Positions 18,101-64,000 of a DNA stretch of 64,000 bases are shown here, piece by piece. A program made the translations under genes and the position numbers. The notes under the pieces were generated by a model. It searched no databases, was not told the DNA's origin, and saw nothing but the letters and a program-made list of their open reading frames with translations. The first letter of the stretch is position 1; every line of letters starts with the position of its first letter. This DNA comes from Bolinopsis microptera (Eukaryota > Ctenophora > Tentaculata > Lobata > Bolinopsidae). The stretch is from contig NC_087075.1 in assembly GCF_026151205.1 (NCBI RefSeq), positions 5,200,858-5,264,857 on the forward strand, written 5' to 3'.

Positions 18101-21100
18101 TTGTTAAGCCGCTAAACAGTGTTTTAGCGGGTACTCATCGTGTTCCTGCACAGCTCCGTGTCAATTATAGCTTCACCGGACTTGTTCTTGTGTGCTCTGA
18201 TTGGTTGGGTGGGGGAAATACTGTGCTCTGATTGGTTGAAGACGTGTCGAGTGAAGTCGACTGCTTGTTCGCGTACTGTATATGAGACTACAGTGCTACA
18301 CCAGCCTTACCCCGATTATAACGATATTTCACAAAAACCACCTGAAACACCAGCCAATCACAAACCATTATTTCACCATGGCAGAGTATCACATGTCAGG
18401 ATTGTAAAATGTATAACGTCAGCATAAAATTCAAAACACGTGGCGAATACTACCCCAACTCTCCTAAATACACCCACCCAGCCAGTTACAAATACTACCC
18501 CAACTCTCCTAAATACACCCACCCAACCAGTTACAAATACTACCCCAACTCTCCTAAATACACCCACCCAACCAGTTACAAATACTACCCCAACTCTCCT
18601 AAATACACCCACCCAACCAGCAAATACTACCCCAACTCTCCTAAATACACCCACCCAACCAGTTACAAATACTACCCCAACTCTCCTAAATACACCCGCC
18701 CAACCAGCAAATACTACCCCAACTCTCCTAAATACACCCACCCAACCAGCAAATACTACCCCAACTCTCCTAAATACACCCACCCAACCAGCAAATACTA
18801 CCCCAACTCTCCTAAATACACCCACCCAACCAGCAAATACTACCCCAACTCTCCTAAATACACCCACCCAACCAGCAAATACTACCCCAACTCTCCTAAA
18901 TACACCCGCCCAACCAGCAAATACTACCCCAACTCTCCTAAATACACCCGCCCAACCAGCAAATACTACCCCAACTCTCCTAAATACACCCACCCAACCA
19001 GCAAATACTACCCCAACTCTCCTAAATACACCCACCCAACCAGTTACAAATACTACCCCAACTCTCCTAAATACACCCGCCCAACCAGCAAATACTACCC
19101 CAACTCTCCTAAATACACCCACCCAACCAGCAAATACTACCCCAACTCTCCTAAATACACCCGCCCAACCAGCAAATACTACCCCAACTCTCCTAAATAC
19201 ACCCGCCCAACCAGCAAATACTACCCCAACTCTCCTAAATACACCCACCCAACCAGCAAATACTACCCCAACTCTCCTAAATACACCCACCCAACCAGTT
19301 ACAAATACTACCCCAACTCTCCAAAATACACCCACCCAACCAGTTACAAATACTACCCCAACTCTCCTAAATACACCCACCCAACCAGTTACAAATACTA
19401 CCCCAACTCTCCTAAATACACCCGCCCAACCAGCAAATACTACCCCAACTCTCCTAAATACACCCACCCAACCAGCAAATACTACCCCAACTCTCCTAAA
19501 TACACCCGCCCAACCAGCAAATACTACCCCAACTCTCCTAAATACACCCGCCCAACCAGCAAATACTACCCCAACTCTCCTAAATACACCCACCCAACCA
19601 GCAAATACTACCCCAACTCTCCTAAATACACCCACCCAACCAGTTACAAATACTACCCCAACTCTCCTAAATACACCCACCCAACCAGCAAATACTACCC
19701 CAACTCTCCTAAATACACCCACCCAACCAGCAAATACTACCCCAACTCTCCTAAATACACCCGCCCAACCAGTTACAAATACTACCCCAACTCTCCTAAA
19801 TACACCCACCCAACCAGCAAATACTACCCCAACTCTCCTAAATACACCCACCCAACCAGCAAATACTACCCCAACTCTCCTAAATACACCCGCCCAACCA
19901 GCAAATACTACCCCAACTCTCCTAAATACACCCACCCAGCCAGCAAATACTACCCCAACTCTCCTAAATACACCCACCCAGCCAGCAAATACTACCCCAA
20001 CTCTCCTAAATACACCCACCCAACCAGCAAATACTACCCCAACTCTCCTAAATACACCCACCCAACCAGCAAATACTACCCCAACTCTCCTAAATACACC
20101 CACCCAACCAGCAAATACTACCCCAACTCTCCTAAATACACCCACCCAACCAGCAAATACTACCCCAACTCTCCTAAATACACCCACCCAACCAGCAAAT
20201 ACTACCCCAACTCTCCTAAATACACCCGCCCAACCAGCAAATACTACCCCAACTCTCCTAAATACACCCACCCAACCAGTTGCAAATACTACCCCAACTC
20301 TCCTAAATACACCCACCCAACCAGCAAATACTACCCCAACTCTCCTAAATACACCCGCCCAACCAGCAAATACTACCCCAACTCTCCTAAATACACCCAC
20401 CCAACCAGCAAATACTACCCCAACTCTCCTAAATACACCCACCCAACCAGCAAATACTACCCCAACTCTCCAAAATACACCCGCCCAACCAGTTACAAAT
20501 ACTACCCCAACTCTCCTAAATACACCCGCCCAACCAGCAAATACTACCCCAACTCTCCTAAATACACCCACCCAACCAGTTGCAAATACTACCCCAACTC
20601 TCCTAAATACACCCACCCAACCAGCAAATACTACCCCAACTCTCCTAAATACACCCGCCCAACCAGCAAATACTACCCCAACTCTCCTAAATACACCCAC
20701 CCAACCAGCAAATACTACCCCGACTCTCCTAAATACACCCACCCAACCAGCAAATACTACCCCAACTCTCCTAAATACACCCGCCCAACCAGCAAATACT
20801 ACCCCAACTCTCCTAAATACACCCACCCAGCCAGTTACAAATACTACCCCAACTCTCCTAAATACACCCACCCAACCAGCAAATACTACCCCAACTCTCC
20901 TAAATACACCCACCCAACCAGTTACAAATACTACCCCAACTCTCCTAAATACAGCCACCCAACCAGTTACAAATACTACCCCGACTCTCCTAAATACACC
21001 CACCCAACCAGTTACAAATACTACCCCAACTCTCCTAAATACACCCGCCCAACCAGTTACAAATACTACCCCAACTCTCCTAAATACACCCACCCAACCA

Positions 21101-24100
21101 GCAAATACTACCCCAACTCTCCTAAATACACCCACCCAACCAGTTACAAATACTACCCCAACTCTCCTAAATACAACCACCCAACCAGCAAATACTACCC
21201 CAACTCTCCTAAATACACCCACCCAACCAGCAAATACTACCCCAACTCTCCTAAATACACCCACCCAACCAGCAAATACCACCCCAACTCTCCTAAATAC
21301 ACCCACCCAACCAGCAAATACTACCCCAACTCTCCTAAATACACCCACCCAGCCAGTTACAAATACTACCCCAACTCTCCTAAATACACCCACCCAACCA
21401 GTTACAAATACTACCCCAACTCTCCTAAATACAACCACCCAACCAGCAAATACTACCCCAACTCTCCTAAATACACCCACCCAACCAGCAAATACTACCC
21501 CAACTCTCCTAAATACACCCGCCCAACCAGCAAATACTACCCCAACTCTCCTAAATACACCCGCCCAACCAGCAAATACTACCCCAACTCTCCTAAATAC
21601 ACCCACCCAACCAGCAAATACTACCCCAACTCTCCTAAATACACCCACCCAACCAGCGAATACTACCCCAACTCTCCTAAATACACCCGCCCAACCAGTT
21701 ACAAATACTACCCCAACTCTCCTAAATACACCCACCCAACCAGTTACAAATACTACCCCAACTCTCCTAAATACACCCACCCAACCAGCAAATACTACCC
21801 CAACTCTCCTAAATACAGCCACCCAACCAGCAAATACTACCCCAACTCTCCTAAATACACCCACCCAGCCAGTTGCAATTGGTGTGCATGATAAATAGTT
21901 ACGAATAATACTGCTCATTAACGAATCAAAACATCGTATCTGTAACACGTGACAAAGTTACAAATATAATCCTAGTCATTTACTCGTCTTCTCCACCATC
22001 TCTTTAAAATGAAAATACGTCGAGAAAACGTTCAATTATCACATGATAAATAGTTAAATTTAGCTCGATTTTAACGAAAACACTGGTCCAGGTGTGCACA
22101 GAGCGGGGGACCTTGGATAGTCAGATAATTAGAACTTTTTGTGACAGCTGTGTTTACAGTAGCTCACGTGATATTGATCATTATAATATGTGACTAGCTG
22201 TGTTTTTCCATTATCAGCCACTCTCTAACTATAAGCTGTACTGTTTCCAATCTTGGAAGAGGTAAGAGAGGAAAAAAGCTAAATTTTAAGGCCTAAAATA
22301 AGGGCGGATTAAGATGTTGGTACTAATCTCATCCTGAGAATGTTGGACATTATTTGGGGGAACTACGGACAACCTGCGGGACTACCAGCCTGACAAAACT
22401 CGGTCAGTTTAGACAGATCGTCTGGCGGTGTGATTGTGAGCATCCAGACTAGCTAAAAACCTAGTTCCCATCACTGGAACTGACTGGTTGCTTAATGACT
22501 GGTTGAGGAACGTCACGTGGGGATAATACCGTGCTGTGGTTGGTTAACAATGCCCACGTGCTACAGATCCTGGCTTGTGATTGGAGGGTGAGTGCGAGTG
22601 ATCCAGGGTGTCGGGGAGTGTTTTTTCACAGTGTTGAGGATTGTGTTTTGTGGTGGGAGCTGTGTAGTCTGGTGTTGGGGAGACCGCACAAAGGGAAATG
22701 TGAGGGGGAGGGATGTGCACGTGATCAGGGATGTCACGTGATCAGAACACTGTGCTGTGTTAGACTTTTCAGCCACATTCGACCACCATCTAACTCTTTC
22801 TAGCCCTGTCAGCTCACACTCAAATTCTATTTCAGCTCCAGTTCCGCATCATTTCACAGTGGCTTCCCCCATTTGGGGACCTAGCAGATCTTCACAAATC
22901 AGTGTGCACTTGAGAGTTTGGCTAGCTCGGCTCAAAGAGGTCCTGGTCATTGCCCGGCCTCTCTAATTGAAATAACATCGTTAAGTGTCTCATTTCACAG
23001 GTCACGTGTCATGCTCTCAGCCACTCAGCGCGCAGTATTCCGCCCACGTGGCACACACGGACCAATGGGGGCGCGCGGTGATGGTTCACAGAGGAATATA
23101 GTCTAGTTTTCACACCCAAGTTTAGGACACAACGTCTCGTACAAGGGGGTCGAGGACAACTTCACCCAAAACACGGGACGAATTTTCAGAGTAGATGATG
23201 GCAGGGCAATCTTCATTTAATATTAAATAACTTTGAAATTAAGCTTCATGTAAACGGGAAATTCGAAAAAGTAATGAACCCTCCTTCATTTTCACATTTT
23301 ATTAGATTAATGAATTGGAGTAAATTAAACTGGATAAATTCACAAGAACATACATACGTAATTGTTTTAACGGAAAAATGAAGCAAGTGAAAAAATGTTA
23401 TATAATACCGTATTCCTTACAAGAAATCCCCGCTGGTCATCGCCTACTTATTAATCATTTAACTGTGGAGATAATTCGTGAAATCAGCTTATACTACCTT
23501 ATCGATTGCAGTCAATTTATTTGGCAATACTGAAGCTGTACCCAATGACTAATACCCTCCATAAAAAGCTGAATGATATCTAATCATGATTAGAGCATTT
23601 TCGGGGGAAAAAATCAAAACTTTCAGTTCCTATCATTCCGTTTTATCGGTGCAATAAATTAAGTCATTAAGAAGTATAAAACCAGTACTTCACATTACTA
23701 ACGTCATTAAGACTGTACTTCATAAAATGTCAGTTACCACAATAAAGTAGGGCTAAGTACATTCCGTTTTGGTAACATGATATCGGGTGCAACGTAGATC
23801 ATCAACAATCAAGCAAGCTTGTGGCAACTACTTTTTCCAGGCCTACTTGAAATACGGCACTTGATTGGGCCACCAAAGTTTTTCCCTGTGTCTTGATTGG
23901 TTGTTTTGAGACACGTGCCATCACAGCTGTAATAGTTGTGAAAGCTTGAAAAATACTAGTCACGCCGTTAAAATACTACCCTCTGATTGGCTGATATGTG
24001 TCAAGTGGGCAAAATACCGAGCTCTGATTGGCTTATCCTGGTCAGGTGGTACAAATGTTTATTAATGTTTCGACAACAAGCAAAGTTGAGGAATATTCAT

Positions 24101-45322: not shown

Positions 45323-57269
<11,947 letters not shown>

Positions 57270-57610
57270 AATTTTAAAATAAGAATTTATGAGATAAGGT
57301 TTGGTTAGCACTTTGCATGCTGTCGTTCATTATATTATGACATATTGGGCAGATGTCTTGCAAGACGTAGGATACGAGCTGTTTTCCATGATCTACTCGT
57401 TTAAATGTCGTTTAAATTAAACATTAATTCGTTAAGATTAAAAAGTAATATGCAAAGTCTATCGGAAAAGGACAATAATTAGTTTTGCAAAACACCTGTC
57501 CCAGCTCATTAAATCAATTTTAATGTAAAGCATCTGTTTCCTAATTCTAAACATTTATATTCTCATCAAACATTTCACGCTGTGTTTTTTGTCTAACTAA
57601 GAACTCACTA
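57270..57610. other. Lectin 3' flank
   Basis: AT-rich sequence after the TAA with no open frame of note, presumably 3' UTR and spacer. No canonical AATAAA was seen close to the stop. It leads into the 405-bp array. Confidence 0.5.
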
Positions 57611-60600
57611 GTTGTGGACACAACAAGAAAATTGAGAATAATCTTGTGCGAGGGTAGGGACCCAGATGTCGTTTCTAACCCAAATAAACTTTAAGGAGGC
57701 TTCTCATCAGTAGCCGCACCTCCTTACTCGGTTTCTGAACTGGAATTCTATGGGCTTCCAGACGGCCAGACCGAGTATTACCATCCCATCCTTCTAGAGT
57801 TCATCACAAGTAGCACCCACCTTGAAGATCTTTGACACCCAGACACACCCCATTGGCGAACAAACTTTGGATATAATCTTACATGCTCCCGAAGGAATCC
57901 CTGGTTTATGGTCTTTCTCATCGTCACCAGCACTTTCACTAGGTCACCAGCTCTTTCACTGAAGTCATCAGCCCTTTCACTGAAGTCATCAGATGTGACT
58001 CTGATCAACGGTATAGTTGTGGACACAACAAGAAAATTGAGAATAATCTTGTGCGAGGGTAGGGACCCAGATGTCGTTTCTAACCCAAATAAACTTTAAG
58101 GAGGCTTCTCATCAGTAGCCGCACCTCCTTACTCGGTTTCTGAACTGGAATTCTATGGGCTTCCAGACGGCCAGACCGAGTATTACCATCCCATCCTTCT
58201 AGAGTTCATCACAAGTAGCACCCACCTTGAAGATCTTTGACACCCAGACACACCCCATTGGCGAACAAACTTTGGATATAATCTTACATGCTCCCGAAGG
58301 AATCCCTGGTTTATGGTCTTTCTCATCGTCACCAGCACTTTCACTAGGTCACCAGCTCTTTCACTGAAGTCATCAGCCCTTTCACTGAAGTCATCAGATG
58401 TGACTCTGATCAACGGTATAGTTGTGGACACAACAAGAAAATTGAGAATAATCTTGTGCGAGGGTAGGGACCCAGATGTCGTTTCTAACCCAAATAAACT
58501 TTAAGGAGGCTTCTCATCAGTAGCCGCACCTCCTTACTCGGTTTCTGAACTGGAATTCTATGGGCTTCCAGACGGCCAGACCGAGTATTACCATCCCATC
58601 CTTCTAGAGTTCATCACAAGTAGCACCCACCTTGAAGATCTTTGACACCCAGACACACCCCATTGGCGAACAAACTTTGGATATAATCTTACATGCTCCC
58701 GAAGGAATCCCTGGTTTATGGTCTTTCTCATCGTCACCAGCACTTTCACTAGGTCACCAGCTCTTTCACTGAAGTCATCAGCCCTTTCACTGAAGTCATC
58801 AGATGTGACTCTGATCAACGGTATAGTTGTGGACACAACAAGAAAATTGAGAATAATCTTGTGCGAGGGTAGGGACCCAGATGTCGTTTCTAACCCAAAT
58901 AAACTTTAAGGAGGCTTCTCATCAGTAGCCGCACCTCCTTACTCGGTTTCTGAACTGGAATTCTATGGGCTTCCAGACGGCCAGACCGAGTATTACCACC
59001 CCATCCTTCTAGAGTTCATCACAAGTAGCACCCACCTTGAAGATCTTTGACACCCAGACACACCCCATTGGCGAACAAACTTTGGATATAATCTTACATG
59101 CTCCCGAAGGAATCCCTGGTTTATGGTCTTTCTCATCGTCACCAGCACTTTCACTAGGTCACCAGCTCTTTCACTGAAGTCATCAGCCCTTTCACTGAAG
59201 TCATCAGATGTGACTCTGATCAACGGTATAGTTGTGGACACAACAAGAAAATTGAGAATAATCTTGTGCGAGGGTAGGGACCCAGATGTCGTTTCTAACC
59301 CAAATAAACTTTAAGGAGGCTTCTCATCAGTAGCCGCACCTCCTTACTCGGTTTCTGAACTGGAATTCTATGGGCTTCCAGACGGCCAGACCGAGTATTA
59401 CCATCCCATCCTTCTAGAGTTCATCACAAGTAGCACCCACCTTGAAGATCTTTGACACCCAGACACACCCCATTGGCGAACAAACTTTGGATATAATCTT
59501 ACATGCTCCCGAAGGAATCCCTGGTTTATGGTCTTTCTCATCGTCACCAGCACTTTCACTAGGTCACCAGCTCTTTCACTGAAGTCATCAGCCCTTTCAC
59601 TGAAGTCATCAGATGTGACTCTGATCAACGGTATAGTTGTGGACACAACAAGAAAATTGAGAATAATCTTGTGCGAGGGTAGGGACCCAGATGTCGTTTC
59701 TAACCCAAATAAACTTTAAGGAGGCTTCTCATCAGTAGCCGCACCTCCTTACTCGGTTTCTGAACTGGAATTCTATGGGCTTCCAGACGGCCAGACCGAG
59801 TATTACCATCCCATCCTTCTAGAGTTCATCACAAGTAGCACCCACCTTGAAGATCTTTGACACCCAGACACACCCCATTGGCGAACAAACTTTGGATATA
59901 ATCTTACATGCTCCCGAAGGAATCCCTGGTTTATGGTCTTTCTCATCGTCACCAGCACTTTCACTAGGTCACCAGCTCTTTCACTGAAGTCATCAGCCCT
60001 TTCACTGAAGTCATCAGATGTGACTCTGATCAACGGTATAGTTGTGGACACAACAAGAAAATTGAGAATAATCTTGTGCGAGGGTAGGGACCCAGATGTC
60101 GTTTCTAACCCAAATAAACTTTAAGGAGGCTTCTCATCAGTAGCCGCACCTCCTTACTCGGTTTCTGAACTGGAATTCTATGGGCTTCCAGACGGCCAGA
60201 CCGAGTATTACCATCCCATCCTTCTAGAGTTCATCACAAGTAGCACCCACCTTGAAGATCTTTGACACCCAGACACACCCCATTGGCGAACAAACTTTGG
60301 ATATAATCTTACATGCTCCCGAAGGAATCCCTGGTTTATGGTCTTTCTCATCGTCACCAGCACTTTCACTAGGTCACCAGCTCTTTCACTGAAGTCATCA
60401 GCCCTTTCACTGAAGTCATCAGATGTGACTCTGATCAACGGTATAGTTGTGGACACAACAAGAAAATTGAGAATAATCTTGTGCGAGGGTAGGGACCCAG
60501 ATGTCGTTTCTAACCCAAATAAACTTTAAGGAGGCTTCTCATCAGTAGCCGCACCTCCTTACTCGGTTTCTGAACTGGAATTCTATGGGCTTCCAGACGG

Positions 60601-60912
60601 CCAGACCGAGTATTACCATCCCATCCTTCTAGAGTTCATCACAAGTAGCACCCACCTTGAAGATCTTTGACACCCAGACACACCCCATTGGCGAACAAAC
60701 TTTGGATATAATCTTACATGCTCCCGAAGGAATCCCTGGTTTATGGTCTTTCTCATCGTCACCAGCACTTTCACTAGGTCACCAGCTCTTTCACTGAAGT
60801 CATCAGCCCTTTCACTGAAGTCATCAGATGTGACTCTGATCAACGGTATAGTTGTGGACACAACAAGAAAATTGAGAATAATCTTGTGCGAGGGTAGGGA
60901 CCCAGATGTCGT
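57611..60912 (+). repeat. 405-bp tandem array, about 8.15 copies
   Basis: Unit boundaries (GTTGTGGACACAACAAG) recur every 405 bp from ~57,612 to ~60,852. Copies are essentially identical; a C for T near 58,999 is one of very few differences. The unit length is divisible by three. Plus-strand pieces look like fragments of extracellular modules: VTLINGIVVDTTRKLRIILC, SVSELEFYGLP (resembling the LTLCEVxVxG end of FTP) and LKIFDTQTHPIGEQTLDIIL, but stops separate them. The last copy runs directly into exon A of the next gene. Each copy includes 20-bp sub-repeats (CTTTCACTGAAGTCATCAG). Confidence 0.96.
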
Positions 60913-63518
60913 TAATAACATAATTAACCCACTAATCAATAACATCCCCTCCATCAAGGTCCTATCCGACCCTAATGCTCTCTCCTCTGATAACTTGGTG
61001 AATCTAGCGTACCTCAAGCCCACCTCCCAATCCACTACTGGATGGGGTGGTGTATCCAGCAGGGCTGTAGATGGCAAGGAGTGCGGCAAATACAGCGCGT
61101 AAGTTCTTATCTCCTTTTAAAAACAGTGAGAGATTTGTTTTTGTGATCACCAACATGTATTGTTGATAATGTAACGTTTATATCAAATAGATATGGACTC
61201 TGGTAATCCGGGGAGGTGAAACTTGTGTCCTCCTCGTGACCGTGATTAACCAATCGGGTTCAACAGATCATCGTCACGTGACACAACAAATATGTTTCAC
61301 CTCCACATCTACAAGTGTTACTTTTACAGGGGTACGTGTACTCACACTGCCGGGGCCGGCTGGTGGAAGGTAGATCTTGGAGACAAGTTCGTTGTGGAGA
61401 AGGTATGGATAAGGAACAGGGTAGACTGTTGCTCTGAAAGACTCAACGGAGCTGAGGTCTTCGTAGGGGATATATCCTGTGGAACTATTGAGCAACATCC
61501 TCTCAAGTCCAATTACGAACTGGTATGTGGCGAGGGAATAGTTGGAGACTCTGTCAAGATTGTGAATGATCTCGCGTCTCTAACCCTCTGTGAAGTGAAG
61601 GTGTACGGAGATGACACTCCTGTCATTGAAACGACTGATAAAGAAGTTGTGGGGGACAAGTCTGGAGGTTCAGATGACGCACAGTCTGTAGCCAGGTGTC
61701 CGATGGGCTACGTGGTTACGTACTGTGAAGCCCAGACTGGGAGGGCTGGTAAAGCTGAGTGCGACGGGGCATTTGTGCAGCCTGATAACGGTGGAGTGTG
61801 TGTCGCTGTTAACGGATATAATGGTTCCGGTGCTGTTGCTAGAGCGGTGTGTTCTCAGTTTGAACAGGTTGCCGACCCCTGCAACGGTCCTAACCTCCCC
61901 AAATACCGGAACCTCCACTCCAGAGGACACAGTCCAAGTCTTCAGTGTCCCGCTGGTTACGAACAGATTCTGTGCAATGCACGGAGCCCATGGACCGGAA
62001 AGTTAAATGGCCAGAATGTTGATGATAAGGGAGTGATTCCAAACGAGGAAGATTGTGCTCTTCCGAACTGTGCAGCTGACCGGTTTTGGTGTGAGGTAAC
62101 TGCCGTCTGTCAGCTGATCGAGGATTCAGAAGCGTACGCTTCAGCAGTGTGTAGCACCTGTGATGGATACCACTGTGGAGAGAGTGAGGAGTGTGTCATG
62201 ATGGATATGGATGATGACCCTGAAGATGAAGAGGCGCCCACTTGTGTGGAGAAGCAAACTGGCTGCGATGATAATGACAGGTTGGTGATATGTTACTGAT
62301 TTTTAAACATTTTCTTTCTGATTTGAACGTAGGCGGGGTAGAGTTGTTAACTTAAAGTTTGGAATCTAGAGAATAGAGCTTTGTCTCCTAATAATTAGCT
62401 CTAGATTACAGACTTGTACCCTGTTATAAAGCAACTCTCTTACAACAGATGTGGTGAAAACGGCGTGTGTGCTCCAGTTGGGAGTGATGATTACGAGTGC
62501 AAGTGTGGAGAAGACTACGAGTTCAGTGTTGTTACCGGCTCCTGCATCCCCGTTCATACCATTTGTAAGTACCTTCTTGCATCCCCGTTCATACCATTTG
62601 TAAGTACCTTCTTGCATCCCCGTTCAAACCATTTGTAAGTACCTTCTTGCATCCCCGTTCATACCATTTGTAAGTACCTTCTTGCATCCCCGTTCATACC
62701 ATTTGTAAGTACCTTCTTGCATCCCCGTTCATACCATTTGTAAGTACCTTCTTGCATCCCCGTTCATACCATTTGTAAGTACCTTCTTGCATCCCCGTTC
62801 ATACCATTTGTAAGTACCTTCTTGCATCCCCGTTCATACCATTTGTAAGTACCTTCTTGCATCCCCGTTCATATCATTTGTAAGTACCTTCTTGCATCCC
62901 CGTTCATGCCATTTGTAAGTACCTTCTTGCATCCCCGTTCATACCATTTGTAAGTACCTTCTTGCATCCCCGTTCATACCATTTGTAAGTACCTTCTTGC
63001 ATCCCCGTTCATACCATTTGTAAGTACCTTCTTGCATCCCCGTTCAAACCATTTGTAAGTACCTTCTTGCATCCCCGTTCATACCATTTGTAAGTACCTT
63101 CTTGCATCCCCGTTCATACCATTTGTAAGTACCTTCTTGCATCCCCGTTCATATCATTTGTAAGTACCTTCTTGCATCCCCGTTCATACCATTTGTAAGT
63201 ACCTTCTTGCATCCCCGTTCATACCATTTGTAAGTACCTTCTTGCATCCCCGTTCATACCATTTGTAAGTACCTTCTTGCATCCCCGTTCATACCATTTG
63301 TAAGTACCTTCTTGTATCCCCGTTCATACTATTTGTAAGTACCTTCTTGCATCCCCGTTCATACCATTTGTAAGTACCTTCTTGCAAAACTATTTGATTT
63401 ATTGTTATAATTATTATCAAATTGCTTTAACTACAGGGAGAACGGTGTACGGTGAGCCAGCAGTTGGTGATGATGCGATTAGTTACGCTGAGTGTAACCA
63501 GGGGGATGTGGTCATGAG
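60828..63518 (+). CDS. Second FTP-domain secreted protein, partial at both ends
   Basis: Exons: A (5' limit uncertain, possible acceptor before 60,828) to 61,098; B 61,330-62,280; C 62,449-62,564; D 63,437-63,518. Phases agree at each junction and the window ends in the intron after D. Exons A and B give an FTP domain: VNLAYLKPTSQSTTGWGGVS, AVDGKECGKYSAGTCTHT, then WWKVDLG and RNRVDCCSERL (H-x24-R-x-D-x4-R) and LTLCEVKVYG. B continues into a Cys-rich region with CPMGYVVTYC and GVCVAVNGYNGSGAVARAVC, then CPAGYEQILC; this is vaguely like the Cys-rich modules of the PCSK9 C-terminus, a weak comparison. An acidic stretch MDMDDDPEDEEAP follows, then an EGF-like domain across B/C (CGENGVCAPVGSDDYECKCG). 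It is a likely secreted matrix or recognition protein, related to the upstream lectin gene by its FTP module. The first exon and any signal peptide are not identified. Confidence 0.78.
61188..61311. mobile_element. 124-bp MITE in an intron of the second lectin gene
   Basis: Ends TAGATATGGACTCTGG with GGGGAGGTGAAAC, and (inverted) GTTTCACCTCCACATCTA. The same terminal words begin the giant palindrome (46,430/53,573) and a relic near 7446. Internally it carries GATTAACCAATCGGG and CGTCACGTGACAC, the composite motif that is dispersed over the first 30 kb. Confidence 0.75.
62539..63384 (+). repeat. 35-bp minisatellite containing 24 splice donors
   Basis: The unit is the last ~22 bases of exon C (TGCATCCCCGTTCATACCATTT), its GTAAGT donor, and ACCTTCT. 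Donors recur exactly every 35 bp from 62,565 to 63,370 (24 in total). The exonic part varies at a few bases (CATACC, CAAACC, CATATC, CATGCC), while GTAAGT is invariant in all copies. Confidence 0.97.
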
Positions 63519-63539: not shown

Positions 63540-64000
63540 AACCAATCCCATCCTCTTATCTCATCCTCTTATCTCATCCTCTTATCTCATCCTCTTATCT
63601 CATCCTCTTATCTCATTCTCTTATCCCATCCTCTTATCCCATCCTCTTATCTCATCCTCTTATCTCATCCTCTTATCTCATCCTCTTATCTCATCCTTAT
63701 CCCATCCTCTTATCCCAACCTCTTATCCCATCCTCTTATCCCATCCTCTTATCTCATCCTCTTATCCCATCCTCTAATCCCATCCTCTTATCCCATCCTT
63801 TTATCCCATCCTCTTATCCCATCCTCTTATCTCATCCTCTTATCCCATCCTCTTATCTCATCCTCTTATCTCATCCTCTTATCTCATCCTCTTATCTCAT
63901 CCTCTTATCTCATCCTCTTATCTCATCCTCTTATCTCATACTCTAATCTCATCCTCTTATCCCATCCTCTTATCCCATCCTCTTATCTCATCCTCGCATC
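63540..64000 (+). repeat. 13-bp minisatellite, runs off the window
   Basis: CTCATCCTCTTAT repeated about 35 times, with T/C variation (TCTCATC / TCCCATC) and one shortened unit near 63,695. It begins ~20 bp after the donor of exon D. Confidence 0.96.

Follow-up and report, generated by a model that had tools for sequence, protein, structure and literature searches.

A splice donor repeated in tandem at an exon end of a Bolinopsis microptera gene, with the downstream frame open from the first copy only

A 35-bp minisatellite in the ctenophore Bolinopsis microptera repeats the end of a coding exon together with its splice donor 24 times, and the frame of the downstream exons stays open from the first of these donors only. 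The repeat lies in a window of 64,000 nt (contig NC_087075.1, positions 5,200,858 to 5,264,857, forward strand; the contig is called C4 below), in a gene for a Cys-rich protein of secreted type. The exons that follow the array are under purifying selection, judging by comparison with a paralogue on contig C9, where the same repeat is longer. This gives strong sequence-based grounds for considering the first donor the one used for protein-coding output, and the donors beyond it are most readily seen as by-products, carried along by tandem duplication and recent turnover.

The minisatellite was called by TRF with a period of 35, 24.1 copies and 98% matches (Table 1). The first-pass annotation had placed it at 62539-63384; the array is real, but those edges are off by 4 and 2 bases relative to TRF. 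Its description of 24 tandem intact donors copying the exon C end was borne out: GTAAGT occurs 24 times, always 35 bp apart (first at 62565, last at 63370), in the context TTT/GTAAGTACC in 24/24 units (slashes mark boundaries). Unit 1 (62543-62577) contains the end of exon C at 62564, its exon portion being the last 22 nt of that exon, so the array crosses the exon-intron junction. All 24 donors share their sequence from -3 to +9. The donor had been called perfect, which is true of the intron side, but its final three exon bases are TTT where CAG is usual. Seven variant cells, spread over 6 of the 24 units, all fall in the exon-derived part and none in a donor, in agreement with the earlier remark that the donors are intact while other bases vary. 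TGCA borders the unit twice, 35 bp apart, as an exon copy (TCC/TGCA) and an intron copy (TTCT/TGCA). An array of recursive splice sites, which would require AG/GTAAGT, was rejected because AG never precedes GTAAGT in any of the 24 units.

Table 1. Features of the gene region in the window (window coordinates)
Feature	Position	Strand	Basis
Exon B, module 1 of a Cys-rich secreted-type protein	61668..62280	+	Open frame; 613 nt align to the C9 paralogue without indels
Exon C, 116 nt, phase 1 end ...CCATTT/GTAAGT	62449..62564	+	C4 versus C9 without indels
Minisatellite, 35 bp x 24.1; per unit 22 nt exon end + GTAAGT + 7 nt intron	62543..63386	+	TRF, unit alignment
Donor 1, sole donor with the downstream frame open	62565..62570	+	In-silico splicing of 24 donors to exons D-F
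Donors 2-24, GTAAGT every 35 bp; each would truncate the protein	62600..63375	+	In-silico splicing
Intron 3' end, non-repeat, acceptor ACTACAG	63387..63436	+	Sequence, C9 alignment
Exon D, 82 nt, donor GAG/GTAAAA	63437..63518	+	No indels against C9; B-J frame open via donor 1
13-bp x 34.8 array within the intron following exon D, that intron's donor excluded	63545..63995	+	TRF

Exon B is continuous in C4 with the sequence before it in an open reading frame at 61292-62299, the upstream portion of which matches F5_F8_type_C_2 (discoidin-like, E 7.8e-9). Exon C, judged by eye, encodes an EGF-like segment, and exon D begins in the acceptor context ...ACTACAG/GGAGAACGG. Exons B to J, of which B, C and D lie in the window and six lie past its end (to 67850 on the window scale), join into one open frame of 2053 nt (683 codons). 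The product matches EGF and calcium-binding EGF, with the best match at residues 485-521, after the array. The stretch 61292-62299 is uninterrupted in C4, whereas C9 has interruptions of ~650 and ~200 bp near 61424 and 61668; an intron loss in C4 is possible, since at least the second interruption resembles an intron. A 3.3-kb array in the same gene region (57609-60913; 405-bp unit, 8.2 copies, 99% alike) is absent from C9 in the alignment. Elsewhere in the window, an (ACTTTC)n array at 56164-56313 starts, by eye, from the third base of an apparent intron after CAG/GTACTTTC, and a 42-bp unit repeated 80 times at 18446-21872 holds open frames of >1100 codons on both strands, which are probably spurious.

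Using two repeat units as the query, we searched the 264.65-Mb assembly (232 contigs) for paralogues. The same 35-bp repeat was found on contig C9 (1002862-1007085), at the corresponding edge of the same exon in a paralogue, in 122 aligned units, a five-fold difference in length from the 24 units of C4. GTAAGT is intact in 117 of these. Unit 61, which has its donor deleted, and the degenerate last unit, 122, were set aside from scoring, and altered donors account for 3 of the 120 scored units (GTAGGT in units 92 and 93, GTTAGT in unit 116). Variant units concentrate towards the intron side, with 13 of 19 in units 91-121, so the exon-side part would be the youngest or the most homogenised. Two paralogues on contig C11 have the homologous exon with a single donor (GTGAGT and GTAAGT) and no array; their donors sit 9 nt upstream in the alignment, with the junction in phase 1 as in C4 and C9. 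Exon C is thus recognisable in four paralogues, all of which have a donor in phase 1 at about this position. At the protein level, exon B of C9 is 97% identical to that of C4, and the C11 copies are 84 and 86% identical. These alignments are most simply explained by an array that came into being once C11 had split off, and that either predated the C4-C9 split or was transferred between the two loci. Conversion may have carried it from one of these two loci to the other, and loss of the array in C11 may be an alternative history. Independent origins of the C4 and C9 arrays were considered unlikely, because unit, phase and place agree.

Junctions of other exons in these paralogues are also repeated. 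The end of exon E with its donor GTAAGTG is present three times in C4 as a 47-bp unit (64815-64940 on the window scale, C4:5265672-5265797, ~0.8-0.9 kb beyond the window end) and once in C9; AAGTGT is present within exon E and again at its donor, and the frame is open with the first exon E donor only. C9 has two copies of the exon J end plus donor (CACTCTCAG/GTGC) at 1010605-1010695 (locus L010), separated by a short repeat, and C4 has one.

When each donor of the 35-bp array was spliced in silico to exons D-F, the frame remained open with donor 1 only (1/24 in C4, 1/117 in C9), and premature stops resulted from 23 of the 24 C4 donors and 116 of the 117 C9 donors. From donors 2 and 3 the reading frame is shifted and runs into a stop in the downstream exons; donors 4-24 take in an in-frame stop that lies where copy 3 ends and overlaps donor 3. 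The first-pass annotation had predicted truncated products from donor 4 onwards; its frame arithmetic was largely right about that stop, but donors 2 and 3 truncate too, so the statement extends to all 23. Between C4 and C9, exons D-J align over 1324 nt with 0 indels and a dN/dS of 0.24 (30.5 nonsynonymous differences over 1044 sites, 31.5 synonymous over 276 sites; Fisher P=1.7e-7 for the synonymous excess, on rounded counts), and exons B-C give a dN/dS of 0.14. The nonsynonymous rate is ~2x higher downstream (~30/1044 versus 8/570 sites upstream, P=0.08), and constraint may be slightly relaxed after the array. As exons D-J appear constrained and can be entered in frame via donor 1 only, the transcripts important for function very likely use donor 1. 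This selection on the downstream exons, together with the frame test, favours the earlier suggestion of one fixed, proximal donor, as far as productive transcripts are concerned. The dN/dS values speak to the donor-1 product mattering, not to the share of transcripts that use donor 1, and the selection may mostly predate the arrival of the array at one locus if the array spread by conversion. RNA structure was rejected as the reason for the choice of donor 1: in base-pair probabilities from folding of 62449-63518, donor 1 was not specially accessible (mean 0.26 unpaired) and was less unpaired than most others (0.34-0.37 for donors 2-21 and 23, 0.49 for donor 22, 0.18 for donor 24).

Either selection or very recent expansion had been put forward to account for the invariance of the donors. 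We compared donor columns with the rest of the unit on distinct variants, leaving out partial units, the deleted unit 61 and the degenerate unit 122, with an expectation of 6/35. Donor columns held 0 of 5 distinct variants in C4 (P of at most the observed number, 0.39) and 2 of 15 in C9 (P=0.51), so that neither array showed excess conservation of the donor over the rest of the unit in these low-power tests. Within that low power, C9 donors mutate like other positions, the pattern that the annotation had named as counting against its own proposal. Variants are no scarcer in donor columns than elsewhere, and some C9 donors are altered; the data are explained without selection on each donor, and very recent expansion is sufficient to account for them.

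We consider it probable that a short duplication of the junction expanded and that transcripts of importance have donor 1 joined to exon D. The initial tandem duplication of the exon-intron junction would have been aided by the TGCA match 35 bp apart, a plausible microhomology, and slippage or unequal exchange would have brought both growth and homogenisation, to 24 units in C4 and 122 in C9. The origin of the array is probably ordinary. In the important transcripts, splicing would run from donor 1 to exon D, and donors 2-24 would be intronic, equal-looking U1 sites without productive output. Unit 1 would be held constant because it is coding sequence with a functional donor, and the likeness of the other units to it would come from recent turnover and not from selection on each donor. 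Donor 1 likely wins through exon definition, being the first donor past the exon C acceptor: the exon to be defined would measure 116 nt with donor 1 versus 921 nt with donor 24. Rare use of donor 2 or 3 would give frameshifted RNA that is probably degraded.

A biochemical argument against donor 1 comes from classic experiments with equal duplicated donors, in which splicing reportedly favoured whichever donor lay closest to the 3' splice site; by that preference donor 24, with an intron of 67 nt, would be chosen. If this last donor were the normal one, the product would be a short protein ending within the array, and the exons beyond it would be relics. Short introns exist here (the E-F intron of C9 has 104 nt), but relics would not be expected to keep D-J as one open frame without indels over its whole aligned length and at such a dN/dS, and we regard this reading as improbable. 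It is highly improbable that the exon C/D model is wrong and the array lies fully within an intron or in untranscribed DNA, given that exon C is seen in four paralogues with a phase-1 donor at nearly the same place and that the B-J chain is open and constrained. Assemblies often mis-size tandem arrays, so the unit number could in principle be an artefact; locus-specific unit variants are, however, scattered through both the C4 and C9 arrays, many such arrays occur in the genome, and the presence of the array is independent of its exact number, which makes this explanation barely credible.

A length-dependent rheostat, which the first-pass annotation had imagined between secreted isoforms, would have several donors in use, with array length setting the ratio of full-length to truncated product or the amount of productive mRNA. 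The identity of all 24 C4 donors over -3 to +9 and the five-fold length difference between the paralogues would suit such a device. So would the donor-containing VNTR of human ABCA7, where longer arrays are associated with lower expression and with more frequent skipping of the exon that follows, the skipping itself ranging from 12 to 45% by tissue (PMC5954066). Retention of one unit is constant across ABCA7 array lengths (PMC5954066), and skipping of the ABCA7 kind would here remove exon D (82 nt) and shift the frame. As donors 2-24 all truncate, donor columns are no better conserved than others and C9 donors are mutated, the rheostat is unsupported, and we think it unlikely.

Donor arrays were also sought elsewhere in the genome with a pattern of three GTAAGT at gaps of 14-44, taking the reversed-letter word as control. 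This gave 8218 (+) and 8853 (-) against 1741 and 1378 for the control, figures that count matches, not arrays; because long arrays are counted repeatedly and non-splice GTAAC repeats may inflate the numbers, the ratio was not taken as a measure of donor arrays. The single word GTAAGT only slightly outnumbers its reverse (79800/80944 versus 76558/76592), and the triple pattern is blind to longer units and other donors. TTTCAG triples numbered 2960/2997 versus 639/766 for the reverse, a comparison made without a single-word control. Nine + strand triple-GTAAGT loci, among the matches listed in the first 2.585 Mb of contig C1, were read over 1.8 kb each; the same stretch had no - strand loci among the matches listed, and the reversed-letter control had two + strand loci. 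An exon end and donor lie inside the unit at two of the nine (L079 and L074), with homology support at one. At L079 (C1:2583300-2585100) a 36-bp unit follows a 143-codon open exon without a Pfam match; by eye, this unit has an in-frame stop (TGT AAG TAA), with which donor 1 alone would be productive. At L074 (C1:857300-859100) a dynein heavy-chain exon (D4; Pfam AAA_8, 3.8e-6) has a 50-bp unit at its end. The array of L071 runs from the second intron base, with the donor placed by eye, after an exon that matches CDK2 at 7e-13 and has no Pfam match; that of L075 starts ~50 nt inside an apparent intron, after an exon without a Pfam match; and that of L076 is antisense and adjoins an LMF1 exon (4.3e-29). 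L072 had no Pfam match and its exon status is ambiguous, and no exon was recognised by eye at L073, L077 or L078. These are signs, from a small sample, that donor arrays recur in this genome. The first-pass annotation had foreseen neither these arrays nor those of the C9 paralogue and of exon E. The wider proposition, that junction duplication is recurrent here, that arrays of identical donors are found in many genes and that the spliceosome reliably takes the first, is tentative and in our view rather doubtful.

Donor-containing VNTRs are already known from human ABCA7 and IFI6. What is new is a single gene family with 1 (two C11 copies), 24 (C4) and 117 (C9) donors after homologous exons, a smaller donor array at exon E of the same gene, and the small-sample signs of recurrence across the genome. 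The choice among identical donors is usually studied with a two-copy construct; in a donor series such as this one, the reading frame reveals the productive choice. RNA-seq and Iso-Seq data of B. microptera have served for annotation (PMC10232365). If such arrays do recur and the first donor is taken, the genome would amount to a large duplicated-donor experiment run by nature, whose result would contradict the rule that the donor nearest the acceptor wins. Recurrent donor arrays would also offer a route for intron growth from the 5' end and be a likely source of gene-model errors. A literature search on ctenophore intron minisatellites found nothing related, from which we do not claim absence from print; in a search on Bolinopsis Iso-Seq and intron tandem repeats, Bolinopsis appeared in none of the matches listed, and a search on tandem duplication of splice donors in minisatellites led to a mouse review. 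A paper on Schistosoma mucins (PMC2576457), consulted for donor repeats, had no bearing on the question.

By anatomy, as judged from its sequence, the C4 array belongs to the ABCA7/IFI6 kind of donor-containing minisatellite: it lies across an exon-intron junction, and its units hold a consensus-like donor (24/24 in C4, 117/122 in C9). The functional mark of this kind would be that more than one of the donors serves in RNA. Duplicated-donor constructs, in which identical donors compete for one acceptor, are reportedly those of Reed and Maniatis (1986) and Eperon (1993). They carry two copies, whereas the natural arrays here carry 24 and 117, and selection implies that the upstream-most donor is the productive one in C4 and C9. 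The minisatellite of human IFI6 (6-16, G1P3) is said to be the subject of a 1995 paper by Turri, Cuin and Porter; its unit is 12 bp, a multiple of 3. Two downstream units are used there, with the frame kept because of that unit length, whereas the 35 bp of the C4 array shift the frame and the extra donors truncate. IFI6 resembles C4 in having a minisatellite at an exon edge that supplies multiple donors, giving three mRNA species (PMC4526556). ABCA7 comes with RNA data, while the C4 and C9 arrays are known here from one assembly. Its VNTR lies in intron 18, directly after exon 18, with a 25-bp unit that includes the donor and is present in ~12 to 427 units (0.3 to ~10.7 kb) (PMC5954066). Canonical splicing uses donor 1 there, and retention of one unit (donor 2) amounts to ~2%, as read from the order of the passage (PMC5954066). 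The likeness is a donor-bearing minisatellite right after an exon, where one extra unit (25 nt) shifts the ABCA7 frame (PMC5954066). The ABCA7 VNTR, as described there, starts with the donor GT and repeats no exon sequence, whereas each unit of the C4 array repeats 22 nt of coding exon.
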